From assembly GCA_033439265.1 (NCBI GenBank), contig JAVTVX010000026.1, forward strand, positions 2,717,501 through 2,781,500: a DNA stretch of 64,000 nt, written 5' to 3'. Below the pieces are notes generated by a model that saw nothing but the letters and a program-made list of their open reading frames with translations, searched no databases and had not been told where the DNA came from. This document shows positions 6,284-61,430 of this stretch, in pieces. The DNA comes from Dillenia suffruticosa. Taxonomy: Eukaryota > Streptophyta > Magnoliopsida > Dilleniales > Dilleniaceae. The position numbers and the translations under genes are program-made. Each line of letters opens with the position of its first letter. Position 1 is the stretch's first letter.

Positions 6284-6392
6284 CTTGCTTTGGATGAGAT
6301 TTTTTTGAGGAGATTAGTTTGGTCCATACGGAGAGTTTTCTTTTGAATTATAATTAAAACTCCACATAATCATCCCATTTGGAATTTTAAAC

Positions 6393-31700: not shown

Positions 31701-32399
31701 ATATGCATCTAAAGCATTGTCATTAAAAATCATAGAGCTGCCAACTGAAAGTGTCCTACAGAGGTCTACCTCGACCTATGACAGGCGTACCGGGAGTGTT
31801 ATATATAAATTTATTTAAAGTGCTCTCTACCCCGGCATTGGCGACGGATCTCGTACAAGTGCTAGACTTGGAGAGAGTATCCAAATTCTCCCCCTTTTCG
31901 GGTTCAACCTGGTTAGTACTGTGTCGTTAATAAAATCAAGACAACTCGTAGGATACCCCAGGCCTAGGCATTTCCGGACGACACCTAAGCGCCTCTCACG
32001 GTGTCCTTCGTAGCTACGAAACAATACATAACAAAACCCTTAAGGCCAAAATCAATCTCGTATCAAGAATGTGCCGAAATCAGGTTCACAAACCAAATGC
32101 AATATATAACGTAAAATGGCACATTATACATTTCAACCACATTGATGCATATCATAATTCAACCCAATTTTTGGATACTCTATCGGTTCACAAAAAGTTA
32201 GTTCCAAAACCAGTCATAATATTTCAAGCACACGACAAATCATGGTCATTTATCAAAATGTAGTATAACAGGGTTTACATATTAAACAAAGGTATTGAAA
32301 TAAATTTCACTCACAGTTGGGGGAGGGTAGCACACTCCCCAATAATACCACGAAGTGAAGAAAAGTGTTCCCCTGACTCAAGGCATCCAACACCTATGA

Positions 32400-35845: not shown

Positions 35846-35917
35846 AAACTTAGGATATGCTCCAACGATAACCAAAATCTTCATGATAGACTTATCTCGA
35901 CCGGTGTTTACAGCATC

Positions 35918-37502
35918 TTTAAACTGTTTTTGAATCTTTTATATTTTGTATTGTTGGATTTTCTTTTGAATTGTGAAATTTTTGGAATTTAGAAATAGTC
36001 GGATTAACAATATGCATGCTTTCGAGAGAGGGATGGACCGAGTGGGTCCTTTGGATGTTGTAGTGTTGTTTTGAAAACATGATGGATATTGATGAATACC
36101 TTGCATTATACCGGTATACGGACAAGAATTACCTATATGCCAAAGTGATACAGTGGTTATCATGTATTCAATTCAAGGGTCAAGACGTGATAGAAGGGTT
36201 TGATTCATTGCTGATTGAATGATTGCTAAAAGGCTTCACATAATGATTAGAAGATTCTACGTGTGTAAAAAGCATGTACAGGAAAAGAGCCTTTATATTT
36301 CTCTCAGTATGTCATTTTACACTAGAGGAGAAAGAAATGGTTACGTCAGGACTGAAATCATTTGTTTTATGGATGGGTTGAGCAATAGAGCCATACTGAA
36401 CCTAACAAAATCCCCCCTTTTTTAATATATTTAAGTCAAATCACACATTACTTGATTATTTCACTTAATAAAGAAAACAACTGCAGAATGTCTATCCCTT
36501 GTGCTAAGCCTATATATCGCATATCTGCAAGTGGCGTTATCCTAATTTTTGGGCACCACGAGTGTGCTATAATAATCTTTTGGTGTCATGCACTGACTCT
36601 CTCGTTGAGCATATAACAATCGTCACATTATTTCGGTGTATGGACACCATTTCCCCATAAACCGAAATAGCGCAAGACATTCAACTTATTTAGAAACAAT
36701 TCAAATATTACCTTAATAACCATCCTAGGTCATCTTGTATCAAAGGCATGCATTTTCACACAATTTAATGATCAATCTGATCCATCCCTATTCACACACA
36801 CATACAAATGGACCCACTTGGCCATTCCAGAATTCTCATAAATTTACAATCTCAAATAGTTCAAAATTCACTATGAAGTGTCCAAATATCCCAATTTAAA
36901 TAATAAAAATTGTAAGAGAAGTTTTTAAATCAAGAAAAGACAAGTTCATTATCATAGGAGTATGGATTTCTCAAATACCTGCCTAAAGAAAGCTAAGCAA
37001 ATATTTAACAAATCCAATCAAAATAAAATATACAAAAAATTTCCTTCCACGGATCATTCTACAGCAATTGAAAATAAAGTCTTCATTTCAAATATCTAGC
37101 TATGTTCAGCAATTATCTTCTTCAGTCGGCTCCAAAATAATGTCTTCCGCCTAAGGTTCCTCTAAAAAAAATTAGAAGATGAGTGAGTATTTAAAATACC
37201 TAATAAGTAGAGTGCAATGGTATGCAATACATAAATAAAGAGTGAAAATAGTTATGCCAATAATCATATACAAAGTGCATTGCCATAAATGAAAACATTT
37301 GTATAAAACAGTTTATTTCAAACCACTATAACTCATACGAACAAAGCAAACAATTTACATACATTTTTCACAATTTTGGAATATGCAGAAATCATTATCC
37401 TACCAATAACCGTTAATAGGATCTGCCAAGGGATCTTTTACTATTTTTTAAAAATCTCTTTCACCTTGGCATTGGCCCGGAGCTCCGTGGAGTGCATCCA
37501 CG
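35918..37502. repeat. Copy 2 of the 1.58-kb duplicated segment
   Basis: Matches 6393-7977 in the same orientation. Here the LTR that starts inside it (36584) continues to a proper end at 39081, so this copy keeps the original arrangement and copy 1 is the truncated one. Confidence 0.85.
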
Positions 37503-39081
37503 TTATCACGGCGCCTTGAGAAGACTCTCCAACCCATCCACAACCAAGCCAAGTTTAACAGCCTAACAGCCTTGACCACACTGCCCCAATGGCCTAATCC
37601 GTGGCAAAACTTAGACTATAGCCATTTTCCAGCACCATATTACCGGAATTTAGTTTATAAATCAACTCAAACTCAAATTTCAATATAGAGCAATAATATA
37701 GTTTTCGCATGAGTATTTAATTGTAACATGATGCAAATAATTCAATAATTTAATACAAGAGTTATAGATTTATTCAAATTTTATTTGAAACACACCATAT
37801 TCAGAAAATATTATAAATCTAGTTCGAACTCATTCCAAAATTCAATTTATGAAATATAATTGAAATTATTTTACTCATTTATATGAAATAAAACCAACCA
37901 CTCACTTCAGGAGGGTATTCACTCCCTATACATTATCAGCTCCAAAGAAATCTCCTTTCAAGCTCCAATAGGTTGTCCTAAACCAACAATAACAATTTTT
38001 GGATCATTTCTCCTTAAATTCAAAGGTTTACAAATTTTTCTTAATTTTATTTAAACCCTAATTTTGAATATTTTCTTATTCTTGTTCTCATTTTATCAAT
38101 TTATTATCATTTATATCATTATAAAATCTATATTCACAATTCTCCTAGATTTTCCTATTTTACTCTCTTACTTAAAGGTCTGTTAGACTAACAACATGAC
38201 TTTAATATCTCACTAGAAGCAAAAGTACTATGATAAAGAAAAAGTTCAAGATGATATATAGGTGATCTTATATATATTTTAGAACGCACTCCAAAGAATC
38301 CATTTTAAAATAGTCCAACATATGAAAAATGGCTTATGCTGTCTATCCAACGTGATCAGCTTTTCTAATGAAAGATAATCACCTTATAATTATAGCAAAA
38401 ATGCACTGCTGAACTTAAATAAACAAGATAATATAGTAGCTTTCAGATCATATACTCAGGAAAAATAATAAGCTTTCAAAAAGAATTGACCAAATGAAGA
38501 TGAAGCTACGACTGGCATTTAAAACTCGCAAACCCCAGTCTTATCCTATGTTAAAAACAAAAGGCAATGGAACCCTTAACTCATGAAACATTGACAGATC
38601 TAGACAGCTATGGAAGCGTAATTTTTCCATTTTCATTTTTTCTCAAAATTTCACTATTCACAAACTTAGGATTTTTGATCTTCCTATGAAATTCCACCAA
38701 ATCTCAACAATAACATCCAATTTTAGTATTAAAGAAACTAAACCCAAGATTAAGAGTAAGAAAATAGCTCAATTTTGGAATTGGATTGGATTTTGAGGGT
38801 TAGGTTCCAAAAACCTTAGCTTTCTCTTCGTAGAACAAACTATAATTTTCCTTTAAATCTTCCCTTGCTTGAGTTTGATTGGGGTTTTGAACACTTGAGG
38901 GAGTGATTTTAGTAGAGGGAAAATTGATTTTTAAGAGAGAAATCAAAATGGGTGATGAGGGAAAGAAAATGTAGAGGGAGAGAGATGAGAGAGAGATGGG
39001 AGAGGGAGACGAGGGAGAGAATAAAACAAAAAAACTTAACTTTTCTTTTTCTTTCCTTTTTTTTCGTTTTTTGGTATTACA
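36584..39081 (+). mobile_element. Large LTR element G
   Basis: Starts TGTCATGCACTGAC and ends TTGGTATTACA (2498 bp). Flanks TTTGG and TCTGG agree at 4 of 5. It has the family's CACTCACTT...GGAGGGT...CACTCCC block near 37900 and a purine/pyrimidine-rich end. No coding domain. Ends and size fit the same family as A, D, E, F. Confidence 0.65.
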
Positions 39082-41215: not shown

Positions 41216-42052
41216 TCACTCTTGATCAAGCTTGCTTCCCATGACATCGACTACGAATCGAAATCGGACATCGTTCTTCTCCAACCTCTCTATAGCTTTG
41301 TTAACATAGTCCATCTTCACCACTTCAATCATTGATGTCAAGTTTTTCTCCCCGCAAAATTCAAGCATCTCCTCCATGTCCTTCATGCTTCCTATGAAGC
41401 TCCCGGTGATTGTCTTTCTTCCTATTATTAAATTAACAAATCCAAAAACATGAGTAATATATGTATCATTACTAATGAGCATTTATTACTAAAAAGATTT
41501 GATCAGTTTAAAGATGACATGCATCTTGGGGAGGTCAAGGCCCTATGTAAGGAAGGAAAAATATTACATGGGTAGGAAGAATAATAAATATTGAGAAAGT
41601 GAGAGGGGCTGACCTAGCAAAACCACAGGACTGAGGAACTGCAATGGTTGGTTAATCAAACCCATCAAAATCAACTTGCATCAAGCTTCAACAATGACAA
41701 ATAAGGTTCAAGAGGGTGGAAAACAGGAATAGTATCAATAATATAATCAAGGGAGTCAGCAGCCTCTTGCATTTTGGTGGCATCAGAGCTAACCAAGTAC
41801 TTTTGAGCCCCCAAATGTTCCATAGCTTCCTCTCTCTTCTTGTCCGATGAGCTTATGACCGTCACATGATGTCCCATAGCCTTAGCCATTTTCACACCCA
41901 TGTGTCCTACACCTCCAAGCCCCAGTATTCCTGCTCTCAAACCACTCTTTTTCAACCCTAAGTGGCTCAGTGGGCTATACGCCGTCACTCCCGCACATAG
42001 TAGTGGTGCTGCCTGCTCCGGGGCCATTCCTTCTGGGATTTTCGCCACAAAT
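41216..42052 (-). pseudogene. CAD: Cinnamyl alcohol dehydrogenase (CAD), 3' half only
   Basis: Two exons read on the minus strand: 42052-41614 and 41421-41216, with AG/GT sites at the boundaries. The first encodes [20 protein letters not shown], then the NADP-binding motif [17 protein letters not shown] and [17 protein letters not shown]. The second encodes [20 protein letters not shown] through [14 protein letters not shown] and a stop. This is the cofactor-binding C-terminal half of plant CAD, the zinc medium-chain dehydrogenase of the last monolignol step. Two faults mark it as a pseudogene. A one-base loss near 41679 (codon for Gly in the usual LLKLDGKLIL) shifts the frame inside the first exon. 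The N-terminal exons with both zinc-ligand sets (GVCHSD, GHE, four-Cys lobe) are absent upstream, where repeats follow. A functional gene split by a giant intron is unlikely, since no such exons are visible up to 49 kb. Confidence 0.88.
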
Positions 42053-43969
42053 CTAATGGAAAGGCAATTAGTACAATTGAATCCAATATATGCACAAAAA
42101 CACCGTGCATCATCTTGTTCCAGAGAATGAGTGTTAATTAATTTGATAAGAGTGTTAATTAATTCGATTCAAATTATATCAAATTAAAACTAAAATGATA
42201 TAATTAAAAAATTATATATTACGTGATTCAAGCACATTCGTTTGTTTCGCATCTCTCTTCCAACTTTTTAAGTCATTCTGATCATAAAACTTTAATAAAT
42301 CTCATGTTAGAACCAACGGTGGGACTTGATTAATTATTCAGGCCTAAATCTAAAGAAGGGACATTAGGTCAAATGTCAATATCACAGTAGAAATCTAATT
42401 GAAATCAAGTGTTACTAAGATTTGAATATAAAGTTAAATTATTATCTACTTTGTTGATAACAAAAATATGACAATTCTTAATGATGGATATAGAATTTCA
42501 AAATTTTAAAATAATACAGGATACTATTTTTACCTATTCATTCTTTACAAAATATTTGCAAATAGTAATATTCTTTTGTACCTATTTAATATATGACACA
42601 CTTTTACGTCTTAATGCTTGTAAGAAAAGAGAGTACAAAATCAAAATTTTAGCCAATAAACAACAAATTTGGTCCCACGCCTCTCATGGGCTTCTATGAA
42701 ACCATTTTGGGTCAAAGTTGGACTTGCATAATTTATACTAAATGCTCTATCAATTAATATTTAGGTTTTATCTAACTGTTTTGGCCTTGGTAAATTTAAC
42801 AAGATGACCTAGCAAACGAAATTAAACATGTAAGTCGTCCTGTCAACTAAACAAGTCGTCTAGTAAATTGAAAGATCTAACTTAAGGCGACTCATTATTT
42901 TTTTTATAAGAAGACCTCTGACTTGACAAAGCTACTCATGATAAAGACAAGTCTTCTTAACTCTCACATTCGAAATCTTGACAAGTAGACTTATACAACT
43001 ACCAAGGCGACTCAAGATTCAAATTATAAAGATAAATCTACTTATAGTCTCGATAAATCGACCTGTTGTATCTAACATTTATGTGTTCAGAAAATCTGGT
43101 GTGAATTTAATGTATTGTTCGCCTACTTCACTAAACACTGAAATGCATTCAATGGTGTCCAATGACTAAATCTATTTATCGATTATAAAATCAATTGAAG
43201 AATATAAGAGTATTGATTCACTCAAAGTCTGAAACAAATCTCATAACGTTATAAGCTCTGCTCTTTATTTTTAATCTGCAGCAATCTGAAAATTAAAAGC
43301 TTCACTTTGCCTCTTATTTTCTCTCTACTTATTGTGTAAAATTAGATCTATATCATTCTGAGTCTGTACGAAAGAAATTAGGAGAGATATCAGATTAGAT
43401 TTACTTGATCCTATGAAAATCAAGTCGAAATATTAGGGAAAATACTTGTATGGTTCACTTGCACCACGGGAAGCCAGTTTGTAATTTTTTGAATAGAATA
43501 GTGGATTCAAAAATTCAGATAAAATTTGGAAGTGGACGTACTCTAAGAAAGTGAAACCACTATAAATTGTGTATCTCAATTTTTCTTTAAATTCCTTTTG
43601 TTTATTTTTATAAATTGTTTTAAAAACTCCAAAATTAGTCAAAATTTGTAAATAATCTATTCACCTCCCTCTAGATTATCATATTTAGTATCAACAACCA
43701 CAAACAACTAAAATTTAATGATCTAGGGTAACCAATAACAAACGAATTCGAATTCTAATAATATGACTAAGGTTAAGCCATTTGATCAGCCATCGAGTAA
43801 TGGGCCTGTCACCTCACAATATGACTCGTCGCTTCAGCACAGCTTCCGGTTCTACTATTGCTTGCTTATTCAACCCATCAAAGGTAAGCTTGGCATGGTT
43901 CTTTGGTTTGGTCCCAACTTGTTTTTGAGTAGAGAGACAAGAAAAACTGAATGAACCTTGGATCTTTGT
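42053..43969. other. Non-coding stretch, possibly an old LTR at about 42740-43690
   Basis: No gene recognised. The 42.8-43.7 kb part ends TTCACCTCCCTCTAGATTATCA, close to the TTCACCCCCCTCTAG end of many Copia LTRs. It is followed by TTTAGTATCAACA, faintly like a Met-tRNA primer site. No pol sequence of that kind follows, and the left end is not placed. Confidence 0.3.
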
Positions 43970-46900
43970 GGCAACTTTAATCATATGCTACTTTTCCTAC
44001 TCTGGACAATACTGGGAATGGGCCATAGAACTTTGAAGATAATTTGATTTGTCTTCTAAGTTCAATAGACTGTTGTCTGTATGGTTGAAGTTTCAAGTAA
44101 ACTAAGTCTCCCACTTCAAACTCCCTTACAGTTCTTCTTTGATTAGCATAGGTTTTCATTCTGTTCTGAGCTCTGACAAAGTGGCCATGTAGTATTTGTA
44201 ACATAACTTGTCTGTTTTTAATAAAAGTCTCAATAGCAGGGATAATGGAATCCATGTAAAGGCCAAAAGAAATAATTCGGGGCTGATATCCATTCAAAGC
44301 TTCGAAAGGAGTCATCTGTATACTAGAGTTGAAGTTGGTGTTATACCATCATTCTACTAGGCTTAACCATTGTGACCAAACTCTTGGCCTATCTACAGCC
44401 ATGCACCTCAAATAACATTCAAGACATTGGTTCAATCTTTCGCTTTAACCATCGGTTTGTAGATGGTATGCACTAGTAAGCTACAGTTGTGTGCCAACCG
44501 ATCTGAACGTTCTTGTCGGTGTTGGTGAAGATTTTGTCCATGTCTGTTACAGTCGAATCTGGTAATCCATGAAGTCTGAAAACATTATCTACAAAGGATT
44601 GAACTATTATCTTTGCGGAATAGGGGTGTTGTAATGCCACAAAATGATCAAATTTTGTAAGTCTATCGACAACTACCAATATTGTGTCGTAACCATGTAA
44701 GTCTGGCAATCCTTCTATGAAATCTATATTGATCTAAGACCATGCTTGCGATGGAATAAGTAAAGGTTGAAGAAGACCTGGTTATGGTACATTTTCATGT
44801 TTGTTTCTTTGGCAAGTATCACACTTCCATACTAGTTTCACCACATCAGACTTCATTACAGGCCAATAAAATACAATTTTGTAAGTACACTGCTGCCCTG
44901 AATGTCCCCCCATGGCCGAGTGATGCATCTGTTGGATTATTCTTGACCTGAGCTGAGATCCTTTTCCTTACATAGATTTTCTTTCTGAATTTAAGGATGC
45001 CTCCCTAAAACTGATAATCTGTAATACTATCTAGAATTAAAGTGAGTTGGGCTATCAAGACCTGACACTCTTTGTTGCCTTCATAGCTTTAAGTAAACTC
45101 TCTCAATCATTCTGGTTGTACTAAGGACAGTGCCATTACCTCTCCTTCCTATGATTCCTCTGACAACAACCATTTTCTTGATAATGCATCAGCTACTTTA
45201 TTTTCAACCCCCTTTTAATATTGTATTTCATAGTCTAGGCCAAGTAATTTTGTGAGCTATTTGTATTGAAATGTGCTAGTCAATTTTTGCTCCAACAAGT
45301 ATTTCAATTTTTGGTGGTCAGTCCTAATGATTAAATGATATTCAATCAAATAATGTTTCCACTTTGTCACTTCCATCACCACAACCAACAACTCTTTCTC
45401 ATATATTGATAGTCCTTGGCTCCTAAGCCCTAAAGTCTTACTCAAATAGGCAATAGGTTGGCCTTCTTGCATCAGGATTGCTCTCCATCCTTTCGAGCAT
45501 GCATCAATCTCTATTATGAAGGGTTTAGAGATATCAAGCAATAGCATGACTAGTGCTGAAGTCATTGCCATTTTCAGTTGTTGGAATGCTTGTTTAGACT
45601 CATCATTCCAATAGAAACTATCTTTCTTACGAAGATCAGTTAGGGGTTTTGTTATGACTCCATAACCCCTGATAAACCTTCTATACTACTCTATCAGACC
45701 CAAAAACCCTAAGAGCTTTGACATTCTTTGGTGTTAGCCAATTCTGTATGCATCCAACCATTCAGACACTATGTACCACAAATATTCCACTTGTGTTTGT
45801 GCAAATGTGCATTTAGAGTGTTTAGCAAATAGCATGTGCTATTTCAGGATCAAAAATACTTCATTTAGGTTCTATGTATGAGTCGCCACATCAGAGCTAT
45901 ATATTAATATATCATCAAAGAACACTGGCACAATTTCCTGAGGTATAACTGGAAAATGTGGTTCATGAGTGACTGGAAGATGATGGGAGCATTAGTTAAA
46001 CCAAAAGGCATTACTAGAAATTCAAAATGGTCATGATGTATTTGAAAAATTTTTAGAAATGTCACCGGTCTGAACCCTAAACTGATGATATTCTACCCTT
46101 AAATCAATCTTAGAAAATACTTTAGACCCATGTAACTCATTTAAAAGCTCATCAATGTTTGAAATAGGGTATCTGTCATTTATGGTAAGATTGTTCAATT
46201 GTCTATAATCCATGCAAAACCTTCATGTGTTGTCCTTCTTCCTTACTAATAGCACTGGAGAACCAAAAGGACTTGTGTTGGTTCTGATGATGCCATTGCT
46301 GAGCATTTCCTCCACTTGTTTCTTAATTTCTACCTTCTGTGAGTGGGAATACCTCTAAAGCTTGATTTTGAATGGTTGAGCCTCTAGTTTGAGAGGAATA
46401 TGGTGATCATGTGATCTTTTTGGGGGCAGTGTTTTTGGTTCAACAAAAATATCCTGAAATTACTGAAGTAGTTCTAAAATTTGAGGAGGTATCCGATGAG
46501 GTACAGCTTCTAATTTAGTCACAAGGTTAATGCAGCTTTGCAATTGTTATTTCCTGAATTCTTTGGTATCCTTTCCCCTAATAAGCCTCATTATGGTATT
46601 CTTTGCGTGACCTATTAACACCATTCCCCACTATCGCTTATGAGTTTAACTTAAAGTTGTTTAAAATCAAAGGTAATATGACTAAAATTGTACATCCGGT
46701 CTATACCTAAGTGATGTCCCAACTCCCTAAACTAATTATCTTAAATCAAAAGAGAAATAGTATCCCTGTATGTTCTACTTTTCACCTCTGACTTTGGTGT
46801 AACTATTTACTTTGCTCCCGTCTACAAGAATGGCATGCAGTGGTTTATCTGCTTCAGATAGCATCTTGAGTTCCTCCACTAGCATATGGTTGATGAAACT

Positions 46901-47840
46901 ATTGGAAATCCCAATATCTACTAGAATTGTTACAATCATTCCTTTCCATGATCCTCACAGTGCTATAGTTTTCTTATTTAAGGAATTAAAGAGAACACAC
47001 AATGGTACCTCAACAGCTCCTTACATATGTTCTTCAATTTCCTTTGTTTCCTCGAGTTCTGCTCCTTCTTCCTCTTCAGCTGCTACAATGAGATTGAGGT
47101 TTTTTAGTTTACATTGATGCCCCAGAACATATCTTTCCCCACATTTAAAGCATAAGTTGTTGATTCTTCTATATTGTAGTTCTTGGCAAGAGATTCTTGG
47201 TAGTCTATCTTCTGTGTAGGACCCAGATTGCCCTGTTCTTCCCTTTTTCTGAGGATTCTTAAAGGAAGGGTTTACTTTTTTCCATTCTTGATTCCACTTT
47301 GTACTTCTCCCGGATCCCAATTCTTATTGAATTCACATTTCCTCTGTTTAAAAAGCTTTAAAGCTTGCTTCTGCAAAGTTGCAATTTCAAAAGCTTGAAA
47401 TAAGGAGTTAGTTTCAACATCCTTAGTATAGGTTTAATTTCCTCCCTCAATCCACTAATAAAGCTAGAGATAAAGTGGAACTTAGGGAGCTTGGGATTTC
47501 TATGCATCATAATAGACCATAACTCTTCAAACCTTTCTTGGTATTCAGCCATTGTCTTGTGTTGCAGTAATTTATCAAATTCCTCAATCTCATCACACAC
47601 TTGGGCTCAAATTATTGGCACAAAATTTGGGAGAACTCATCCCAATCAACTTCTTTCTTGACTAACTTTAAGACTTGGAACCAAATTTTTGCTTTCCCCT
47701 CTAAATGCATCTTAATGGCATCTACCCATAGAGAAGTAGGAACTTGGTGTATAGTAAGTAACTTATTGCACTTTCGTAACCAAGCATGGGGATTCTCCCC
47801 ATTAAAGAGAAGAAGTTCAATTTTTGTGGGAAGGATTAAC
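43970..47840 (-). mobile_element. Ty3 (chromovirus-like) retrotransposon fossil, gag-pol body
   Basis: Minus-strand internal region of a Ty3 element in the order gag (47840-47350), zinc knuckle (about 47130), protease zone, reverse transcriptase (about 46250-45650), RNase H (45571-45257), integrase zinc and core (about 44950-44470) and integrase C-terminus (44315-43977). The last has MTPFEALNGYQPR and the GPY-type KLSSKFYGPFPVL. No LTR is visible at either edge. It is clearly broken, with many breaks along gag and pol; an old copy. It shares its right part with the 8-10.5 kb piece. Confidence 0.9.
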
Positions 47841-49481: not shown

Positions 49482-49490
49482 ACCCTAACA
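49482..49490. other. Left 9-bp target-site duplication of the MULE
   Basis: ACCCTAACA immediately before the left inverted end; exactly repeated at 58662-58670. Confidence 0.8.
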
Positions 49491-49660
49491 TGAGTTTTGT
49501 ACAAATTTAACCCCAAATTAAAAAAAAAAAAAGGAAAAAAAAGAAAAAAAAAATCTAAAACAACACAAAGGGGAAAATAATTCATTAGATAACCCATGAA
49601 TATCATGGGTTGAAGATGTGACATATGCGACAAAAGTATGTCACAAGTTGAAGACGCAAC
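49491..49660. repeat. MULE left terminal inverted repeat with stacked hairpins
   Basis: Aligns in reverse with 58485-58661. It includes perfect small hairpins AACCCATGA/TCATGGGTT (49591-49611) and GTGACATA/TATGTCAC (49618-49644), and TTGAAGACGCAA/TTGCGTCTTCAA (49648-49674) overlaps its edge. An A-rich run makes the outer part imperfect. Confidence 0.75.
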
Positions 49661-49706
49661 ATTTGCGTCTTCAACCCGCAACATATTCGTCTTCATAACA
49701 CACAAA

Positions 49707-49711
<5 letters not shown>

Positions 49712-49767
<56 letters not shown>
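49712..49767. repeat. (CT)n microsatellite
   Basis: 56 bp of CT repeats in the leader of the MULE. The Arg-Glu ORFs on the other strand are artefacts. Confidence 0.95.
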
Positions 49768-49773
<6 letters not shown>

Positions 49774-50489
49774 TCTTCCCTTTCTCTATTCGTCTCTTCT
49801 CTCTTCTCTCCTGCAACAAACCCTAACCCTAACCTTCTGCCATTGCAAAATCTGGCCACCATATGTGCATTCCAATGAAAGAAGCAACATCTAACGGCTT
49901 TATTGTACAACTCGCAACCTTCTACGATGATTCCTACAACCTTTTATGGCAATTCCTAAAAAAGTTTCTAAGGTATAATTTTCTCTTTATTTCTAATTAG
50001 TTCATTTCAAATGTTTAATTTGATAGTGAATGATATTTGTTGAATGATATATATTATGCTCACTAAATAGTTTTGTTGAGATTTTTGTATTAATTTAACT
50101 TTTAAGGTTTATTGAATATTTAGTACAAATTTGGAGTTTATGGTATAAATTTAGAGTTCATGGTATATTAACCATTTTATTAATTGTTCAATATTTAATT
50201 AATATAGATTAATATAAATTTAGTATATTTGTTGAATTGTTATAATTATAGATTTAAAATTTTAGGATTTGTTAAATATTTAGTATAAATTTAGGGTTTA
50301 GAGTATGATCATCATTTTATTAATTATTAGTTTTGTTGAATGCTTAATTAATATAAATTAATTTAAATTTTTATATTTGTTGAATTTTTGTTGAATTGTT
50401 ATAAGTTTATATTTAGTGTTCAAATTGCAAAAATTGGTTTCACATTGAATTAGATGTTAATGAATTATTTTTTATGTTAAGAAAAAATT

Positions 50490-53019
50490 GTGGATATGGT
50501 GAGATTGTTATGTTATAGTAACGATAAAATTGTGACGGGTGAGAATGAAATTTGTTATGACCGTAGTCCTACGAAATTGATTAGGCTAAAGAAGAATGTA
50601 AGTTTTAATGAATTGGTGACTATAAGATGTAAGGGTTTTCAAATAAATCGTATCACACAACACGTGGGAATTTTTCATCATTGTCTCGTTTCATATATAC
50701 AACATGATAATATATGATTTGAATTGGTTCTGATCAGTGATGATGACGATATTTTAAATTTGATGGAATTTGCGATGAATATGGGAGTGGGTACTACTCA
50801 TAAGTTGTACATAAAATCATACGATGGTGAATGTATGTGCAACAAAATTGTGATTATACGGATAATTATCCATATATCGAATCTCGAGTGGATTTTGTTT
50901 TCACAGAGTTGGATAACGATGTTGATGAGGAAGAAATGGCAAAAGAAAAGGCAGAAGACAAGAATGATGATGATGATGAAGATGATGATGGAGAAATTGC
51001 TAGTACTACCAATGAGTTAATGATCGGGCCCTCCTCAACCTCTACACCCATTGGGGGTGGTCAGGGATATGCCTATGGCTGAATAGACGACTCAATTCCC
51101 TTCATGACCACTACACCCAGAGGTGATAGTTATATGACTGAGTAAATTGTATATTGGCAAGCGATAGTTGAAATTTTAGCAATAAATTGAAAAATGGGAT
51201 GAGATTTGAAACGAAAGAATAGCTAATTCATACTATTAAAATATACCAAGTAGAGCACCACGATCAATTTCGGGTTAGGAAATCAACCCCTACACATTGT
51301 ACAACAATATATACTCAAAGGGATAAAGTTTGTAGGTAGAGGATGCATACTCGTAGAATAAGGCTAGTTGGCGCCTTTATAATTACTATTGTTGAGAGAC
51401 CGTATATATGTGTGAATGCTGGGTTGACATAGGATCATAAACAACTAGATTCAAATTTGATCATCTGACATTTTCTTAACTATATGAGGAAAGATCCCAA
51501 TGTCAAGTTTCTTTTCTCTGAACTATTATGACTAAGAGAACCATGTATGAGTTTCATGTAGAAGAGTTGGGCAGCAACAAGAAAGGCTACAAAGATGGTA
51601 TACGGGGATTGGGATGATTTTTACAAACAACTATCTTGGCTATTGGATGCAATAGTGCAAAGGAATCAAGGGACACAAATCAGCTGGAAGTTGGGTCCAC
51701 CAAATACAAATGGTGAAATAGTTTTTGAAACTTTATTTTGGACATTTGGTCCTAACATCATGGTTTTTAGGTGTTGTAGGCCATTGACAAGTATAGATGG
51801 GACTCACCTCTATGGAAACTATAAGCACAACTTGTTGATTGCCTGTAGTATGGACGGTGTGAATTATATTATCACGTTGGCATTCAGATTGATTGATGGA
51901 GAGTCAATTGCTTCGTGATCGTGATTTTTGAGCTGTGTGCAACAGCATGTTGTTGGAGATTAGAAGGGTCCCATTTGTTTAATTTCAGATCGACATAAAG
52001 GGATAGGAGCAACAATTATTAATCCAGAATTTGGATGTTCACCTCCAAATGTTGTATGACATTTTTGCATACGTCATATTATCAATAATTTCAATGCGCA
52101 CCACAAAAATCAAACTTGTAAGAGAGTTGCTACCATTGATGCATTACAACCACAATGTAAAAAATTTGATATATATATATATATATATATATGGCAAGGA
52201 TGAAGAGAAAAAAGAAAATGTTCCTAATTATTTTACAAATATTAGCCCTCAACAATGGGCTCTCTCTCACGATAGTGGCTTTCGTTTTTTGTATGTGACA
52301 ATAAATATACGTAAAAGTTATAATATCGTATTAAAAGGTGCAAGAAATATATATGTTTCTGCCTTGGTACAGTTAACTACTTTGAGACTTGATTGGGTGA
52401 GGTGAGAGCGTGAATGTCAAGAAGATAGCAGTACACAAAGAATGCCTCTGTCATGCTAGGGAGATGGATGAGTACGGCTAACCTCCACACGATTGTCTCT
52501 TTTAACAGGGAATATGAGATTTTTGATGTAGAAATAAACTATAGATAGACACGATATGGCCACAATGGGGTAGTAAACAGATTGAGAATGTGAGAGATAA
52601 ACATTGCGTATGCAGAAAATGGCAAACGTATAGAATTTTTTACTCTTATGCAATCGCTGTACTAACAGACGATGATTGATCTGCATATGATCATCAGGAA
52701 ATGGTATATATCAGAACACCAATTTAGAGTGTATGAGTATCGTTTCTTACCAGTGGGAAACCATTCAGGATGGCCTATGGGTTTGTACCCAACTATCATT
52801 CCCGATATATCATTTAGACATGAGAAAGGAAGATCTAGATCATCTCGATATCATAACAAGAGAGATCTTCGAGAATCATCCTCGTGAACATCATATGGAA
52901 GTTGTAGTGCAAAGGGTCACAATAGGAGGAGATGCACGATACAAATGAGGTATGGACTTTGTGGCAGACAAGAACACAATCAAAGATGTTGTCCAACTGC
53001 AGATGAATGATGTTTAATT
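50490..53019 (+). pseudogene. MuDR/MULE transposase remnant
   Basis: Plus strand. 50490-50717 encodes RLLCYSNDKIVTGENEICYD and SPTKLIRLKKNVSFNEL, the N-terminal segment usual in plant MULE transposases. It continues in shifted frames to a Glu/Asp-rich stretch near 50930-51010. 51595-51918 holds the catalytic core start: LFWTFGPNIMVFRCCRPLTS, then IDGTHLYGNYKHNLLIA (first Asp of the DDE triad at 51796) and LAFRLIDGESIAS. CLISDRHKGIGATI follows near 51985 (second Asp), then ALSHDSGFRFLYVT and VLKGARNIYVSALVQLT near 52255-52380. 52700-52850 resembles the SWIM-adjacent end (FLPVGNHSGWPMGLYPTIIP). 52895-53010 has two zinc-knuckle-like motifs, GSCSAKGHNRRRC and YGLCGRQEHNQRCC. Several stops and frame changes separate these parts. 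Confidence 0.9.
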
Positions 53020-53285
53020 GTATTTATATTTTATATGTAATTCTTGTATTTCTTTGTATATCAAATATTGTGTTTTTGTAAAATATTTAATGTACTTGGC
53101 ATACATTCAATGTACTAAGTGTTAATGTATTTCTTATTACACATTAACTGTTATCATATTTTAATAAATTTTTTTAATACATATCAATTGTTACTGTGTT
53201 GATGTACATTTCTAAGTATTTTTCTAAACATTTTTTCTTAATACACATTTCTAAATATTGATGTATTTTTCCTTCTTTGTATTAG

Positions 53286-54560
53286 ATGGATCCCAGACCT
53301 ACTCATCAGAGCATTCTACGTCTGGAACGAGGTTATCGTTCTTCCAGGATTTGGGATGGAGATGACAATTCATGGCTCATTTTTCGTAAACATAAGCAAA
53401 TATTATAGCGTTAAGACCATGGTCATATCAATGAGCGAGTTCTTCCCATCCTAGAATAGTCGGGGTTTTTAGGTGTCCCTCGATTGCACTTTGTTCAGTT
53501 GGAGTATCCCATCACAGCCCTAGTCGAAAAATGGAGACAAGAGACGTACATATTTCATATGCCCCACGGTGAGCTTACATCATATTACAGGATGTAGAGG
53601 CATTTTTAGTTTTACCTATACATGGGATTCCCATAGTAGGTTGGATGACAGGTATCTCGTGAGGTGATACATGTGAGAGTTATTAAATGTGAGATCTCCA
53701 TGTTCAGAGTTTAAGGGTTAAATTTTGAGTATGCCTTGGTTATCAAAGTTTTTTGGTGACTTGCTCGATAATGCAGATGATATACATATTTTACGATAGA
53801 TACGAGCGTACACCGTGTTACTAATCAGGGGTGTTTTATTTACTGATAAGATTAGATAATGTGTATATTTACGATATTTGTTAGTGTTAGAAGATTTAGC
53901 TTTGTCTAGTCATCATAGTTGGGGTTCTGTATGCTTGTTTTACTTGTATTGACAACTTTGTATAGCTACACATACAAACTCGCATGAGATAGGTGGGGCT
54001 CTTATCCTTTATAGATTCAGGCATGGGAGAGATTCTCTTATATAGCTCCCATTAAACGATTATTGCACATGCAGGAGGATGATCCATTTGTTTTGTAGTG
54101 GAAGGCAGATTTTGATACAACTATCCTCCCTATACACGTGGTGGCAATGTATAGGGAGGCATTTGATAGGCAAAGGATGGATAAGATCGTGCAGGTGTCA
54201 TACATTGATAAGGTATTTTCTTCCCTCCCTGACTATTGTCATGAGGAGATGGATATTTGGTGCGTTTACATACTACTTATCTGTTTAGTATTACAGAGAG
54301 TTACTTTCCGAATAAAGTAATCTATCAGTATAGAGGATTTTAATTTATTTCGATTCACTGTGATACTAAAGATTAACTCCCCAAGACTAGTACGTGTGGT
54401 CCACAGGAGACTGATTGATCGATTGAATATGCACGTTATGTAGACATTTGGACTCAGTGATACAACCATCTAGTTCCACTTGACACGTCGTATGGACTCG
54501 CCATCAATCCTGCCTACACTGCCTGATATCGTACCATCTCCCATAGATTCATTGGTTATC
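53286..54560 (+). pseudogene. Plant mobile domain (PMD, MAIN/MAIL1-like) remnant within the MULE
   Basis: Begins at an ATG with MDPRPTHQSILRLERGYRSS then RIWDGDDNSWLIFRKHKQ. Later frames give INERVLPILE, GFLGVPRLHFVQLEYPITAL, VEKWRQETYIFHMPHGELTS, and near 54138-54290 MYREAFDRQRMDKIVQVSYI followed by SLPDYCHEEMDIWCVYILLI. These follow, in order, the conserved path of the plant mobile domain (PF10536: ...I..LIER W R.ETHTFH.P.GE.T.TLQD...; later WRARVPLICF.IVE). PMD proteins occur as host genes (MAIN, MAIL1) and inside transposons. It lies 270 bp after the zinc knuckles on the same strand. Several stops and frame breaks make it non-functional here. Whether it was a second gene or part of one long transcript is not visible. 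Confidence 0.8.
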
Positions 54561-55011
54561 GAGGAGTTTGTTTAGGTTATGTAGTAAGTGTATAATTTTC
54601 TATTTTTCATTTATATCAATAATTTAGATTTATTAGTTTAACTAACATATATATAATTTTTTGTAGTGGGATATTACATCAAATTCGAGATTCTGAGAGC
54701 ATTGACGTGCATAGACTAGCGATTCAACCATTTTGGTCTTGGCAGATGACATAGCATATCTTTTAAAATCTAGACTGGCTAAAAGTAGTGATGAGAGAGG
54801 TGATGAGAACCGAGAACATGAACAACGCTGAAGGAGAGCACGTCCAAGGAGACCGCCACTATCTCAGCATCCATATTGCAGGACCTTCGAGTGATTATAT
54901 AAAGTTTTCATCTTTTTACACACCTGTATATGATAATTTCTCTCAGATTTTCAATCCATGGGATCCATAGAGGGGAGTTCGTCCCGATATTCATATAAAT
55001 AAGGGGTTGAC
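54561..55011 (+). other. MULE region after the PMD
   Basis: Degenerate continuation. A 60-codon ORF at 54788-54970 (ending NPWDP) lies on the same strand and may be the C-terminal tail of the PMD product, but no family feature supports this. Confidence 0.4.
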
Positions 55012-57907
55012 TATAACACCAAAAATTCGATATCAAAAAATTTTTACTAAATTTTTTGCTAAGTAATTGATTTTAACTCATCAATAAAAATTTTATAAAG
55101 TTTTATTTAAAGAAAAATAGGCTTCGGTGACGATTTGGGACAAATAAAACTTATTTGGAGTCAATTAAGTAAAGACTAGTAGGCTCGACCTATGATAAGG
55201 TGACTTGAAGTTCAAATTTTGAATTTTGGTTAAGCAAGGCCCCAATGACAAGTCAACTTGTGCCTCCAAAACACATAGGCAAGCCGCCTTGCCCCAATAA
55301 CAAGTCAACTTATACTTCCTGACTGTGTATCTATAAAGCCACTTGTGGCCGGCAGAAACCAATGCGCCAGATTTAAGTCACAGAGAAATATATCTGCAAT
55401 TAAGCAAGGTGACTTACCAAAGAAGTGAGATGACATGTGGGTTACAAAATATGAAATTTGGATTGTCTTGAGCTAATTTTGAGTCAACTTGAGGGGTCGA
55501 TGAAACAAAGAGTAAAGCAACTTGTTGGACAACAAGGGAACTTGGCCTTTGAAAACCTTAGACACATAAGGCGACTTATGCTATTTGTAAGTTGACTCAT
55601 GGGTGTGAAAAGGTGTGAAATGACAGAAAGAGATAACCAAATTTGAACAAAACATAAAAATAATGAGGCTCAAAATTAAGATTTCACACTCCACAATAAA
55701 AAGGGCTTAAACAAGTCTTCATTCTCATTTCTTCTCTCCCAAACTCACTCTCTATTATCTCTCTCGACTCTCATCTATCGACTCTCATTCTCCCTCTTGA
55801 TACTCTCTCACACTCTCAATCTCTCCCAAAATCAATTGTATCTCCCTCAAACCCACTCTATAAAACTTCCAAATCTTCAATCAATACTTGGATTGGGATT
55901 GATTTGAAGAAAGAAAACCTAGGGTTTGCGCAAAAGGAGAAAATTTAGAATTTTTGAAATCCAATATTCAAAATGCAATCAAAGCACGAAATTAAGGTAA
56001 TTTTTCCTTCCTTTTGATGGGTTTAGTTCCATTTCTCTTGAATTTGATTCTTAAACTTAGATTTGGGAAATTTGTTGAGAGAGAAAATTAAAGTTTTTGA
56101 CAACTTGATTCCATACGAAATTTGTGGAATTCTTTTGAGGTAATCTTGCTCTCTCAACCTAAATTTATGTTTTCTAGCATGAATTTAGATTATTAAATAT
56201 GGATTGTGAGATTTGACTTGGCAAAATTAAATCTATGGTTTATAAATGTGAGATTTGGGGAAATTATGTATGAAAATGGTATATATGTGCAAATGGTATG
56301 TAATTGATAAAATGAGAATATAGATTCATGGATTTTGAAAATTAAGATTTGTATTATATTTGGAGAAAACACATAAACCCAAATTTTAGATGTGGTTTAA
56401 CATTGAATTTATATTTATTGATTTAAGATAAACCAATTGGAATCCAAAAAGGGATTGTCTTGGAATGATTGTGAATTGGGAGTGTTTACCTTCTCAAGAG
56501 GTGAGTGATTTCATTATTTTATTTAAATAAGAAAATGATTTTATTAAATTTTGTGAGTGATTTCATGATTGTACTTAAATGAAAAAAATACTTTTATTGA
56601 ATTTTTTAAATGATTTTCAAAACTCAGATTTAAATGTTTTATTGTGTATGGAATATCTCAAAAATTAGATTTTGAATTTTTATACATCCTATATACTTTG
56701 TGAACAAATGTGTCATGTGAGTCTATTGATATTAAACATATCGATATGATAATTACCTTTGAGAAATTGTTAAAATTGATAGCACATAAATTGGATTTAT
56801 GAATTTGTGAAATTGTGCTATGATTGGCTTAGGATAAGAGTTTGAACCCCTATTAGATGACTAATCATTTCCCGCTACGAAACGACCTGACGGGGTAATG
56901 TAATGGGATGGAAGACCATGGGATGTGTCGTGCATGTATGATACGCCGAGGAACATGGGGTACATTCATGACTAGATATAGTGCCCACGGATATGGTTGG
57001 TAAACCATGGGATGTAACCGTACGTGTATGATATGTCGAGACATGTGGAGTACATTCATTGTTGGATATAGTGCCCATGGGTGTAGGATAATTGGACGCA
57101 CCTCGAATGAGAGTTCACAGATAATGTCAAGGATTGGGCACTTTTAAAATGTGAAAATTATTAAAACTCTTAGCGGTTCCACCCCCTTTGTTGGGAACAG
57201 TATTTTTGGTTTCCCGTGTTTGAAAATATGAAATTTGCGAATGCATATGAGTTTGAATTTTGATTATTGTGAATTATTATGATATTAAAAACAATATTTG
57301 AATTATTCATTTGTTCGATAAAATTGTGAATGACATGAGATTTGAACTATATGGACTTTTCATAGAGGAAGCTTAGTCAAGACTCGTGGATGCATAGTGC
57401 TAGACTAGTATAAAATTGTTTTACTGGACTTTTCCGGGTAATAGTTTTCATTTAGAATTGAAGTATTTGTAGACCCAAGTAGAGGCACAACGTTTAATTT
57501 TTTTGAAAACTTATTTTCTACTATATTTATTTTGGTTTGAAACTTGATGATGGTTTGCATACTTAAAATAAGAACCCTTTTTCTTTATTTTTTTGAATTT
57601 TCTTTGAGAATTATTTTAGAGAAATTTTATATGTATCTCTTGAGTAGGGATTTGTTTATATTTTATAAATTTGATTTAAACGTTTGGGTTGGCCGGACGC
57701 ATGCATATTTTAAGTAGGGATGGACCGGTTAGTCCTTTGATTGTGCGATAATTACTTGCTGATTTATTTTGTTGAATAAATTTATTTTTAAAAATAGGTG
57801 GATATTAGAATGTCTTGCGATATTTTGGAACATGAAGTGGGGTTTACATGTGTTTTTGGGTAATGTGGCAGCTGTCCCGTGCTCGACGGGCAGGTCGAGG
57901 CGTGACA
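55012..57907 (-). mobile_element. Large LTR element I nested in the MULE (minus orientation)
   Basis: On the minus strand it starts TGTCACGCCTCGACC at 57907 and ends at 55012 with GGTGTTATA (2896 bp). Flanks TTGAC and CTGAC agree at 4 of 5 bases. The head shares CCCGTCGAGCACGGGAC-type sequence and the GAATGTCTTGCGATATTTTG block with element H. It contains an 89-bp tandem duplication. No gag/pol. Confidence 0.7.
56915..57092. repeat. 89-bp tandem duplication in element I
   Basis: Two copies starting ACCATGGGATGT and ending ATATAGTGCCCA(C/T)GG, diverged in between (ATGATACGCCGAG against ATGATATGTCGAG). Confidence 0.85.
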
Positions 57908-58259
57908 CTGACACAGGTTGACCCATGTATATATGTCCCATCCACTTTTTATTGATACCCACCATGATAATATAGAACTCTATCAAATCATACAGATAAA
58001 TTATCTGAATTTAGTAGTTTATAATGATAGTATAGATATTAAGTTTGATTTAGGTGTTAGACTGTATAATAAGAGAAGAAAATGATGTTAAAATTTATGT
58101 GTTATGTATTTTATATATTTTATTATATTAATGAAAATTATATTTTATTATATGTTAGTTTTGTTGTGTATAGTTTGTTATATCTGATTTATTTTGTTTA
58201 TTGGTTTTGTTGTACTGTTGATAAATTGAGTTTATATATTGTTTATAAATTTAGGTAAA

Positions 58260-58440
58260 ACAATTGGTGTAATTTGGGTGTGAGAATGTTACTTTAATGT
58301 ATTGCTGAGAAGTTAAGAAATTTGCACGTAACAATTGATGTAATTTGAGTGTGAAAATGTTATGAAAATTTGACTTTATATATTGTTAGGAAATTTAATT
58401 GCAACAATTGGTATAATTTGAGTTTGAAATTTTGGTAATA
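58260..58440. repeat. ~72-bp subterminal repeats in the MULE
   Basis: ACAATTGGTGTAATTTGGGT and two relatives start at 58260, 58331 and 58404, each followed by similar T/G-rich sequence. They lie just inside the right inverted end. Confidence 0.7.
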
Positions 58441-58484
58441 TATGGATGTGAGTATAAGAGAATAGGTAAGAGAGTAAGAAGTAT

Positions 58485-58661
58485 ATTGCATTTTCAACTC
58501 GCGGCGTACTCTTGTCACAAGTTAAAAATATCACGAGTTAAAAATGTGAAATACTATTTTGCATTTTTTTTATGGGTTATGTAATGATTTTTTTTGTTTT
58601 TGGTTTAGCGCTGTTTTAGAAATTTTGTTTTAAAATTTGGGGTTGAATCAATGTAAAGCTG
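58485..58661. repeat. MULE right terminal inverted repeat
   Basis: Read in reverse it aligns with 49491-49660: CAGCTTTACA..., CAACCCCAAATT, TCTAAAACA, ATCATTACATAACCCAT, and an ACTTGTGACA block. It ends directly at the duplicated ACCCTAACA. Confidence 0.75.
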
Positions 58662-58904
58662 ACCCTAACACCATAAGAATGGATAAAAAAATCAAACCAA
58701 AATCCGAACCTGAGGGAAGTCACCGGAACCAGACCCGGCAGAGCTACCGGATGTATTACCGACTCGAACAGGGACATGTTAGATGACCCGCCGGAGTTTG
58801 ATTTCGAGATCTTCCTCTTCGATATTGGGAGCCGCTGTCGGCGATTGAGAAAACTGGTGTTGAGAACGATTTGACGAGTGAGGCCGGGGATTGAGAACGA
58901 GGAC
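58662..58904 (+). promoter_or_regulatory. Right MULE target duplication and PPR gene leader with two upstream ORFs
   Basis: 58662-58670 is ACCCTAACA, the right MULE target duplication. The remaining 234 bp up to the PPR start codon is GC-richer, leader-like sequence. Two upstream ATGs open short ORFs at 58751-58786 (11 codons) and 58776-58874 (32 codons), both closing before the main ATG. If the transcript starts upstream of 58751 these could lower translation. No clear TATA box is seen in the 234 bp, so transcription may start in MULE sequence. Confidence 0.5.
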
Positions 58905-61430
58905 ATGCTCCGCACCCCCTCATGGAAGAAAAAACTGGTGTTGCCCACGACTAGGGTCATCTCTACTTGCTCACTCTCACTCTCACTCTCAGACGCCAAG
59001 CGTCTCCACCAACACCTCCTTGTCCGGGGAGGCCTCACCGACTACTTTTCCACTGCTCAAGTCATCTCCACATACATAGCTTGCGATTCGCCTTCCCATG
59101 CTCACTCTGTTCTGGAACGCCTCCCTCCTTCTTCACCTGCTGTCTTCTGGTGGAACCTCCTCATCAGGAATGCCGTGCGCCGCTCTCTTCCTTATGATGC
59201 GCTCAATCTCTACTGTCGGATGCGTTCACTCGCCTGGAAACCTGACCACTTCACCTTTCCCTTTGTTCTCAAAGCCAGCAGTGAGCTTCCCTCCTACTTC
59301 CTAGGATCTTCGATTCATGCTACTCTTTTCGCAAGTGGGTTTGATGCCAATGTCTTTGTATGCAACGCAGTGGTGGCTATGTACGGTCGCTGTGGTGCTT
59401 TGGCTGGCGCAGCTCAGATGTTCGACGAAATGCGTCAGAGAGGTGTTTTTGATATTGTATCTTGGAACTCGATCATTGCTGCGTATGTGCAATGTGGTGA
59501 GTTTTGGAGGGGTTTGGATTTGTTTGGGAAAATAAAGGATAGTGTTGGTTTGTGCCCTGATGCTATTAGCCTTGTGAATCTACTTCCTGCTTGTGCTGGT
59601 GTTGGTGCGGCATTGCAGGGTAAAGAGGTACATGGGTTTGCTTTAAGGACCGGGCTTTTTGAGGATTTGTTTGTGGGTAATGCTTTAGTGGATATGTATG
59701 CCAAGTGTGAGATGATGGATGAGGCAAACAGAGTTTTCGAGAAGATGAAGGTTAAGGATGTGGTTTCTTGGAACACTATGGTTACTGGGTACTCACAGGT
59801 TGGTAGATTTGAAGATGCTCTAATTCTATTTAAAAGGATGCGGGACAATAATATTGAGTTGAATGTGATCACTTGGAGTGCCGTGATCGCTGGTTATGCT
59901 CAGAGGGGGCTTGGGCTTGAGGCAATGGATGTTTTTCGGAAAATGCAATTTTGCGGCTCTGTGCCAAATGTTGTTACTCTCGTTTCACTTCTTTCAGGTT
60001 GTGCTACGGTGGGAGCTTTGCTCCATGGCAAGGAGACTCATTGTTATGCCATTAAATGCATTTTGAACTTCCAAGGTAGCAATCCAGGTGACGATCTAAT
60101 GGTTATCAATGCTTTGGTGGACATGTATGCCAAGTGCAAGAGCTTTAAAATAGCCCATTATATGTTCAACAGAATAGTGCAAAAGGATAGGAATGTGGTG
60201 ACTTGGACTGTTATGATTGGTGGCTATGCTCAATATGGGGAGGCAAACGATGCATTAGAACTTTTCTACAAAATGTTGCATGCAAATAAGCCTATGATTC
60301 CTAATGCCTTTACTATATCTTGTGCTCTGATGGCTTGTGCTCGTTTGGGTGCACTACGGTCTGGTCAACAAATTCATGCTTATGTGTTGCGTAATCGCTA
60401 TGAGTCTGTTATGCTTTTTGTGGCCAATTGCCTCATAGACATGTATTCAAAGTCTGGAGATGTTGATTCAGCCAGATTAGTGTTTAACAGCATGCATCAT
60501 AGGAATGAGGTCTCATGGACGTCTATGATGACAGGCTATGGCATGCATGGCCGAGGTGAGGAAGCTCTTCAGATTTTTGATGGAATGAGGAAAACAGGTC
60601 TGCCAGTTGAAGCCGTAACTTTTGTTGTCGTTCTTTATGCTTGCAGCCATTCTGGACTGGTCGATGAAGGAATTAATTATTTCAACAACATGAGCAAAGA
60701 GTTTGGGATTGTTCCTGCTGTAGAACATTATGTTTGCATGGTTGACCTCTTAGGTCGTGCTGGTCGCTTGGATGAAGCAATGCAATTGATCAAGGAGATG
60801 CCTATGGAACCCAGTCCAGCTGTGTGGGTAGCCATGCTAAGTGCATGCAGGTTGCATGCCAATGTAGAACTTGGGGAATATGCTTCCAATCAGCTGTTGC
60901 AATTGCAGTCAGAAAATGATGGATCCTATACGCTGCTTTCAAACATATATGCTAGTGCCAGACGTTGGAAAGATGTGGCCAGAATAAGATCTTCGATGAA
61001 ATATGCAGGGATTAGGAAGAGACCTGGCTATAGTTGGGTGCAAGGGAAGAAAGGTACTGCATCATTTTTTGTTGGGGATAGGTCTCATCCTCAGTCTCCA
61101 CAAATATATGAGTTACTTGCTGACCTTTTACAGCGCATAAGAGCCATAGGATATAGACCAGACACAAGCTTTTCTCTGCACGATGTGGATGATGAGGAAA
61201 AGGGTGATCTTCTTCTTGAGCATAGTGAAAAGTTGGCTCTTGCCTATGGCATCCTCAATTCTTCTCCAGGTGCAACCATTCGGATCACCAAGAATTTGCG
61301 TGTTTGTGGTGATTGCCACAGTGCAATTACTTTCATTTCCAAGATCATTGACCACAAAATTATATTGAGGGATGCAAGCCGTTTTCATCATTTTGAGAAT
61401 GGATCTTGCTCATGCAAAGGCTACTGGTGA
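58905..61430 (+). CDS. Pentatricopeptide repeat protein, PLS class with E/E+ and DYW domain, At5g16860-like
   Basis: Single-exon ORF of 841 residues from the first in-frame ATG at 58905 (A/G at -3; a longer reading from 58878 would need a GTG start). PPR proteins of this class bind organellar RNA, and those with a DYW domain act in C-to-U editing. The N-terminus (MLRTPSWKKKLVLPTTRVIS) is basic and Ser/Thr-rich, fitting an organelle transit peptide; mitochondrion or plastid is undecided. Repeats with typical VFVCNAVVAMYGRCG, DVVSWNTMVTGYSQ and NVVTWTVMIGGYAQYGEAND blocks fill about residues 70-625. The E/E+ part follows. The DYW deaminase has HSE at 773-775, CGDCH at 801-805, CSC near 835-837 and ends GYW instead of DYW. 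Order and spacing closely follow Arabidopsis At5g16860, including the RNVVTWTVMIGGYAQ and GKETHCYAIK blocks. Intact; no frame break. A MULE lies 243 bp upstream. Confidence 0.96.
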   Translation: MLRTPSWKKKLVLPTTRVISTCSLSLSLSDAKRLHQHLLVRGGLTDYFSTAQVISTYIACDSPSHAHSVLERLPPSSPAVFWWNLLIRNAVRRSLPYDALNLYCRMRSLAWKPDHFTFPFVLKASSELPSYFLGSSIHATLFASGFDANVFVCNAVVAMYGRCGALAGAAQMFDEMRQRGVFDIVSWNSIIAAYVQCGEFWRGLDLFGKIKDSVGLCPDAISLVNLLPACAGVGAALQGKEVHGFALRTGLFEDLFVGNALVDMYAKCEMMDEANRVFEKMKVKDVVSWNTMVTGYSQVGRFEDALILFKRMRDNNIELNVITWSAVIAGYAQRGLGLEAMDVFRKMQFCGSVPNVVTLVSLLSGCATVGALLHGKETHCYAIKCILNFQGSNPGDDLMVINALVDMYAKCKSFKIAHYMFNRIVQKDRNVVTWTVMIGGYAQYGEANDALELFYKMLHANKPMIPNAFTISCALMACARLGALRSGQQIHAYVLRNRYESVMLFVANCLIDMYSKSGDVDSARLVFNSMHHRNEVSWTSMMTGYGMHGRGEEALQIFDGMRKTGLPVEAVTFVVVLYACSHSGLVDEGINYFNNMSKEFGIVPAVEHYVCMVDLLGRAGRLDEAMQLIKEMPMEPSPAVWVAMLSACRLHANVELGEYASNQLLQLQSENDGSYTLLSNIYASARRWKDVARIRSSMKYAGIRKRPGYSWVQGKKGTASFFVGDRSHPQSPQIYELLADLLQRIRAIGYRPDTSFSLHDVDDEEKGDLLLEHSEKLALAYGILNSSPGATIRITKNLRVCGDCHSAITFISKIIDHKIILRDASRFHHFENGSCSCKGYW

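Follow-up and report, generated by a model that had tools for sequence, protein, structure and literature searches.

A relic of a Mutator-like element (MULE) with a plant mobile domain (PMD) lies on the plus strand of a 64,000-nucleotide stretch of Dillenia suffruticosa DNA (contig JAVTVX010000026.1, positions 2,717,501 to 2,781,500), here called the window. A sequence-only reading of the window had proposed a single MULE with a MuDR-type transposase and a PMD on one strand, and profile searches agreed. MULE PF10551 scored 39.2 bits (cut-off 27.6). PMD PF10536, inside the element, was matched in two separate frames with 38.1 and 39.6 bits (cut-off 34.9). All three matches were on the plus strand. 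The reading had also named SWIM as a domain to look for. No SWIM profile match was found in the window, where C-x-C is kept and C-x-H is gone; SWIM is whole in a sibling element (31.1 bits, cut-off 19.6).

The coding parts are decayed, as the reading had said. The transposase relic contains 18 stops in 830 codons and 8 frame changes. The PMD relic contains 14 stops in 435 codons and 4 frame changes. Both D motifs of the transposase are retained and the E motif NISESFN has become NIRKSYN (we take these motifs to hold the catalytic residues D, D and E). The lost E motif marks a dead copy and is no argument against membership of the MULEs. A Pack-MULE holds a captured gene fragment without a transposase of its own; here a transposase relic is present, and the transposase is intact in siblings. 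The element is very probably an old, dead copy of an autonomous MULE with two genes, transposase and PMD.

Ends of the element and the nested insertion

The element is flanked by a target site duplication (TSD), ACCCTAACA, which is exact over 9 bp, as had been claimed, and neither side allows an extension. Words of at least 9 bp were shared by random pairs of 40-bp window stretches at a frequency of 0.009. A chance duplication was rejected. The terminal inverted repeats (TIRs) gave a local score of 47 compared to a shuffle mean of 16.8 (sd 2.9). This score was reached in 0 of 500 shuffles and, as a control, by 1 of 200 pairs of random window stretches. The long inverted repeats of the sequence-only reading are present over about 200 bp in degenerate form, with an ungapped arm at the ends of 26 nt (85%).

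A sibling, L041, starts with GAGTTTTGTAC and finishes with ACAAAACTC. The left side of the window reads ACCCTAACA-T-GAGTTTTGTAC. Because L041 begins with GAGTTTTGTAC, the first base of the window element is probably 49492 by homology. The duplication is then ACCCTAACAT / ACCCTAACAC (9 of 10 bases), or 9 bp with one added T. It may be a 10 bp duplication with one mismatch. The bounds proposed earlier are fixed by the TSD and TIRs except for this one base at the start.

The search with the right end gave 173 candidates, of which 40 were scored, 39 of them besides the window. A piece reaching query position 736-749 of 750 was found in 5 of the 39 loci, and the other 34 stopped before 600. Full ends are therefore seen in few siblings, and those agree with the window ends. 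L041, which was read at both ends, has the same ends.

Table 1. Features of the MULE-PMD relic, in window positions.
Feature	Position	Strand	Basis
Whole MULE-PMD relic	49491..58661	+	TSD, TIRs and sibling L041; first element base 49492 by L041
Left TSD ACCCTAACA	49482..49490	+	Identical to 58662-58670
Left TIR, degenerate	49491..49705	+	Aligns to right end; left end of L041 homologous
Transposase relic: PB1-like N-terminus, MULE domain, SWIM C-x-C	50487..53004	+	tblastn with young 848-aa transposase
PF10551 match	about 51787-52089	+	Profile search
PMD relic, main exon	53286..54583	+	PF10536, tblastn
Relic of proposed PMD 3' intron, GTAAGT...TTGTAG	54584..54666	+	Position matches proposed 79-bp intron of young copy
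Relic of last PMD exon	54667..54982	+	Two weak tblastn pieces (54718-54982) with the last exon of the young copy
TTGAC, left duplication of nested long terminal repeat (LTR)	55007..55011	+	Right copy CTGAC at 57908-57912, 4/5
Nested solo LTR, TATAACACC...GGCGTGACA, 2896 bp	55012..57907	+	LTR-type ends; lacking in L041 and young copy
3' non-coding part and right TIR	57913..58661	+	39 other scored places match; L041 73%
Right TSD ACCCTAACA	58662..58670	+	Identical to 49482-49490

The sequence-only reading had overlooked the nested LTR. L041 is colinear with the window on both sides of it, and in L041 19 bp take the place of the roughly 2.9 kb of the window. The right-end match followed the coding match after 84-109 bp at L041's place (C26:7257), C2:6908, C1:22009 and C12:8106. 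A deletion between the two matches was seen at C21:7996. The LTR is missing at the same place in siblings, and the window MULE is therefore about 6.3 kb plus a later solo LTR. The end of the LTR resembles window 6175-6285 (77%).

The LTR adjoins the PMD relic downstream and is presumably of Gypsy-like type. This would suit a MULE standing beside the PMD of a Gypsy element or host gene, that is, two unrelated neighbors, and PMDs occur in Gypsy elements and host genes too in the available text of the works cited below. The LTR is a later insertion that L041 lacks, and the same gene order is found in siblings and in an intact young family. The probability of unrelated neighbors is negligible. Two unrelated insertions were rejected as siblings hold both genes in the same order.

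Siblings and young copies in the same genome

The genome searched comprised 596 Mb in 37 contigs. Using the coding part of the window as query, 36 of 811 candidates were scored, 35 of them besides the window. Both genes were matched in 31 of the 35, so siblings with both domains, which the sequence-only reading had looked to for support, exist. Across their main pieces, the nearest relatives among the scored loci shared 74-79% identity with the window. The same gene order was found in a second, divergent family (example L042). At least 125 PMD matches were present in the genome (117 of 1,536 candidates scored).

A young family was also found. Eighteen loci (L002-L017, L019 and L020) matched the young copy L024 over about 4.08 kb at 98.2-100%, with L006 being L024's own place. 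L007, L008, L009, L010 and L014 were identical to L024 over 4,077 bp, giving six identical copies including L024. In a search with the young left end all 40 scored loci matched (40 of 697 candidates scored). The window is colinear with the young element over 5 kb at 70.5%, up to young position 6547, with the same gene order and strand.

The young element in L024 is 7,991 bp in size with TIRs of about 240 bp. Five young copies were inspected for duplications and exact 9-bp duplications were present in L024, L025 and L028. The L024 transposase has 848 amino acids with DBD_Tnp_Mut (32.9 bits), MULE (58.6 bits) and SWIM (31.1 bits) all above cut-off. PB1 was under the Pfam cut-off in this transposase (15.6 compared to 23.6 bits). 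The PMD gene encodes 435 amino acids plus a last exon of 180 amino acids, and PF10536 scored 293.6 bits, above its cut-off. The 3' intron of 79 bp is proposed from GT-AG signals.

The young transposase and PMD frames are separate and lie 229 bp apart. No splice donor of at least 5/7 was found between young position 4100, near the transposase end, and a point 60 bp short of the PMD start. The TTTCAG directly before the PMD ATG resembles an acceptor. Both frames were full length in 7 of 12 fetched loci (L021, L024, L025, L027, L028, L029 and L038). L034 had the transposase frame only. The transposase frames of L036, L037, L039 and L040 were shortened, and their PMD frames were missed or shortened by the seed word used; in the genome search these four gave PMD matches without a stop, partial for L040 and L039. 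An internal deletion in L040 has fused a truncated frame of the transposase, 645 aa between stops, with part of the PMD.

Selection, decay and the role of the PMD gene

Four relics (the window, L041, L043 and L044) were compared with the young copy. Between window and young copy, synonymous divergence (dS) was 0.63 for the transposase and 0.79 for the PMD. The ratio of nonsynonymous to synonymous divergence (dN/dS) was 0.34 (0.28-0.42) and 0.33 (0.25-0.44), respectively. Changes common to the four relics fell on codon positions 1/2/3 as 18/17/70 in the transposase (542 codons, p 4e-12 compared to flat) and 20/19/55 in the PMD (370 codons, p 1.5e-6); changes scored as common could have occurred on the branch of the old or of the young subfamily. 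Changes private to a relic were distributed as 128/129/107 in the transposase (p 0.28) and 93/87/74 in the PMD (p 0.33). Those private to the window were 34/27/23 (p 0.33) and 20/22/10 (p 0.09), respectively. Pairwise window counts from before a frame correction were 107/100/101 for the transposase and 51/43/42 for the PMD. The relic pairs differed by 20-31% per codon position.

Purifying selection acted on both genes on the branch between the old and young subfamilies. The third-position excess was seen in the common changes and was absent from the private ones, and therefore both genes evolved under selection during mobility and neutrally after landing. The comparison indicates that the PMD was kept under selection as a gene of the element, together with the transposase. 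Old neutral relics and a near-identical family with open frames occur in one genome, which provides a paired set for a direct test. Whether the PMD in MULEs is baggage or useful to the element is unsettled in the available text of the cited literature, and the present data indicate selection.

The PMD could instead be a passenger, a host gene captured by a MULE in Pack-MULE style and with no role for the element. Two captures of PMD-C by MULEs are argued for in the available text of Ikeda et al. 2017 (PMC5418596). Of the 35 scored siblings 3 had the transposase only and 1 had just the PMD start, which speaks for a passenger and against the two-gene reading. The constraint on the PMD equals that on the transposase, the third-position excess is present between subfamilies, and the gene is found in most scored loci and in the second divergent family, all of which argue the other way. 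A passenger PMD is considered very improbable.

Other points also weigh against an autonomous two-gene MULE. The TSD word ACCCTAACA is telomere-like, and besides the two flanking copies the window has a third at 32920; 0.36 occurrences are expected per window and three or more copies were found in 1 of 100 shuffles. The flanks of L041 are without a TSD. Among the young copies, L040 needs the right end CACCC, not CACTC, and then has ATTCTCTTCT (10 bp) on both sides, and the right end of L021 was not located. The codon alignments were stitched through frameshifts, and the four relics were picked for a good match to the window. The dS values of the two genes are similar and unequal. L042, the example of the second family, had no Pfam MULE match and showed transposase similarity by tblastn. 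The two-gene MULE is still the preferred reading.

In this two-gene MULE, a DDE transposase would have cut the element at its TIRs and inserted it with a 9-bp target duplication. The PMD protein would come from a second frame further downstream, which starts at an ATG of its own and, judging from splice signals, has a 3' intron. The window copy would have inserted some 0.24 kb ahead of a PPR-DYW gene. It would then have been silenced, methylated and decayed in place, largely through C-to-T changes. A retrotransposon would have inserted later and collapsed to a solo LTR. Among the four relics, C>T and G>A accounted for 341 of 618 private changes, a share which appears to fit methylated DNA.

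The sequence-only reading had suggested, from decayed coding parts and a perfect TSD, that the transposase of another copy had mobilized an already dead copy in trans. These two features are present. Summed over the three other relics, the window also shared 15 stops, compared to 2.7 expected with all codons alike, and over all relic pairs 39 stops were shared compared to 27.9 expected from codon susceptibility. From the latter comparison, some of the other relics may share a dead ancestry. For the window, susceptibility alone predicts 12.4 of the 15 shared stops, and several differ in stop triplet. The window-private changes showed no significant unevenness over codon positions, as expected for decay after landing. 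At 10-13% decay per copy, some 7-13% of copies would still hold an intact 9-bp duplication, a chance that is low and unremarkable. Decay of the window copy most likely followed its landing, and movement in trans is improbable. Copy-specific dating is impossible here, so the suggestion is left unsupported rather than refuted.

The published systems are described here from the available text of each source. The PMD was first described with a rice MULE (Babu et al. 2006, as cited in PMC5418596). In grasses and Amborella, MULEs are described with PMD-C fused to the transposase (Ikeda et al. 2017, PMC5418596). The same authors proposed capture from host genes and speculated on anti-silencing. MULE-PMD is therefore already known as a kind of element and the window copy adds a further member. 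Like the grass and Amborella elements it joins a MULE transposase and a PMD in one DNA transposon; those are described as encoding fusion proteins whereas the young copy here has two open frames. In eudicots PMD-C is for the most part genic (Nicolau et al. 2020, PMC7156037). Tea PMD genes yield phased small interfering RNAs (PMC10673657) and the cupuassu genome paper names PMD proteins (PMC11152179); neither text, as far as available, holds a MULE-PMD element. No description of a MULE-PMD element in eudicots was found in the openly licensed literature that was available.

The genome studied here also differs from the grass and Amborella hosts in its core-eudicot-type AP3 C-terminus. The genome search used letters which we take to be the euAP3 motif. 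An AP3-like exon, recognized by eye, ends in ...GAGSDLTTFTLLE-stop at one place in the genome. The reversed pattern was matched once too, and the count alone is not significant; context and stop support the match. The euAP3 motif is a core-eudicot feature (PMC1513400, available text). A core-eudicot MULE-PMD family would widen the range beyond grasses and Amborella.

The PMD protein may, tentatively, help the element against host silencing or in its expression. This role is proposed because related host PMD proteins, MAIN and MAIL1, act in the silencing of transposable elements. A direct part of the PMD protein in transposition is also possible. VANDALs are MULE-type elements, and VANC is a protein family other than PMD. 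MAIN and MAIL1 share the PMD domain with the young MULE and differ from it in being host genes (Nicolau et al. 2020, PMC7156037, available text). VANDAL elements carry anti-silencing proteins called VANC (Hosaka et al. 2017, PMC5735166, available text) and possibly work in a similar way, as transposons with an extra protein gene beside the transposase. VANC has an anti-silencing function, whereas anti-silencing by the PMD of this MULE is a proposal drawn by analogy. MUSTANG-B genes are domesticated and have PB1 with MuDR and MULE domains (review PMC8616336); this combination is shared with the MULE described here, and no PMD is reported for MUSTANG-B in the available text.

PB1-PMD loci and other features

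Two loci elsewhere in the genome combine a PB1-like part with a PMD. L033 (3456-4589) has an open frame of 378 amino acids with a PB1-like N-part and a PMD. In its relatives at C19:12843, C10:6216, C30:9643 and C18:10063 the two parts are 2.6-3.5 kb apart. At C10:6216 (L042) the two are separated by transposase-like sequence (tblastn E 9e-22), and a Pfam search of L042 gave PMD only. The transposase core is missing from L033 compared to L042, and 10 kb of sequence showed no TIR. The pair is a candidate case of a gene left after loss of the transposase core, and it suggests that such a loss can leave a PB1-PMD gene. L033-private changes were mildly third-position biased (14/11/20 and 5/4/8). 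The dN/dS of its N-part was 0.82 (0.50-1.28), indistinct from 1.

L035 (3559-6636) is a single-copy locus with PB1-like and PMD frames. The other 11 matches were only 74-158 bp. No transposase core was seen and no TIR was found in L035. PB1 was below the Pfam cut-off in L035 (20.3 compared to 23.6 bits) and L033 had no listed PB1 match. When four sequences were compared, the N-termini matched the MULE transposase N-terminus (L035 E 8e-12, L033 E 1e-7).

The young MULE PMD was 45-46% identical to the PB1-PMD loci, 34% to a MAIN-like locus and 25% to a PMD-B-like locus. These labels and the PMD clade names are our assumed assignments for the loci of this genome. A seven-sequence PMD tree, built without named references, placed the MULE PMDs beside the long PMD-B-like branch (support 0.82). 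It gave no grouping of the PB1-PMD loci with the MULEs, and L033 grouped with L035 at 0.48. A wider reading would make the PMD a standing gene of a whole MULE lineage, in a core eudicot with a recently amplified family; it would counter silencing and would have been passed back to the host as PB1-PMD genes. Taken jointly, this is rather unlikely. If true, core loss would have given rise to L033 and perhaps L035, and traffic between MULEs and host would be two-way and not capture alone.

Downstream of the window MULE a PPR-DYW open frame was found at 58875-61430 (851 aa stop to stop) with PPR, E, E+ and DYW domains. Its first ATG is 244 bp from the MULE end. MULEs usually insert near gene starts. 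Elsewhere in the window, repeats of 93-94% pair 6392-7981 with 35917-37505 and 7976-9693 with 46119-47834. The repeated stretches in 6392-9693, 35917-37505 and 46119-47834 are probably pieces of recent elements. An 84% repeat pairs 19417-20791 with 30876-32315, starting near TGTCACACCCCGAACCGGG at 30877, a retrotransposon-like end, and related ends are found at 23955 and 26122. A zinc-binding dehydrogenase frame (PF00107, 50.3 bits) is encoded on the minus strand at 41671-42168.

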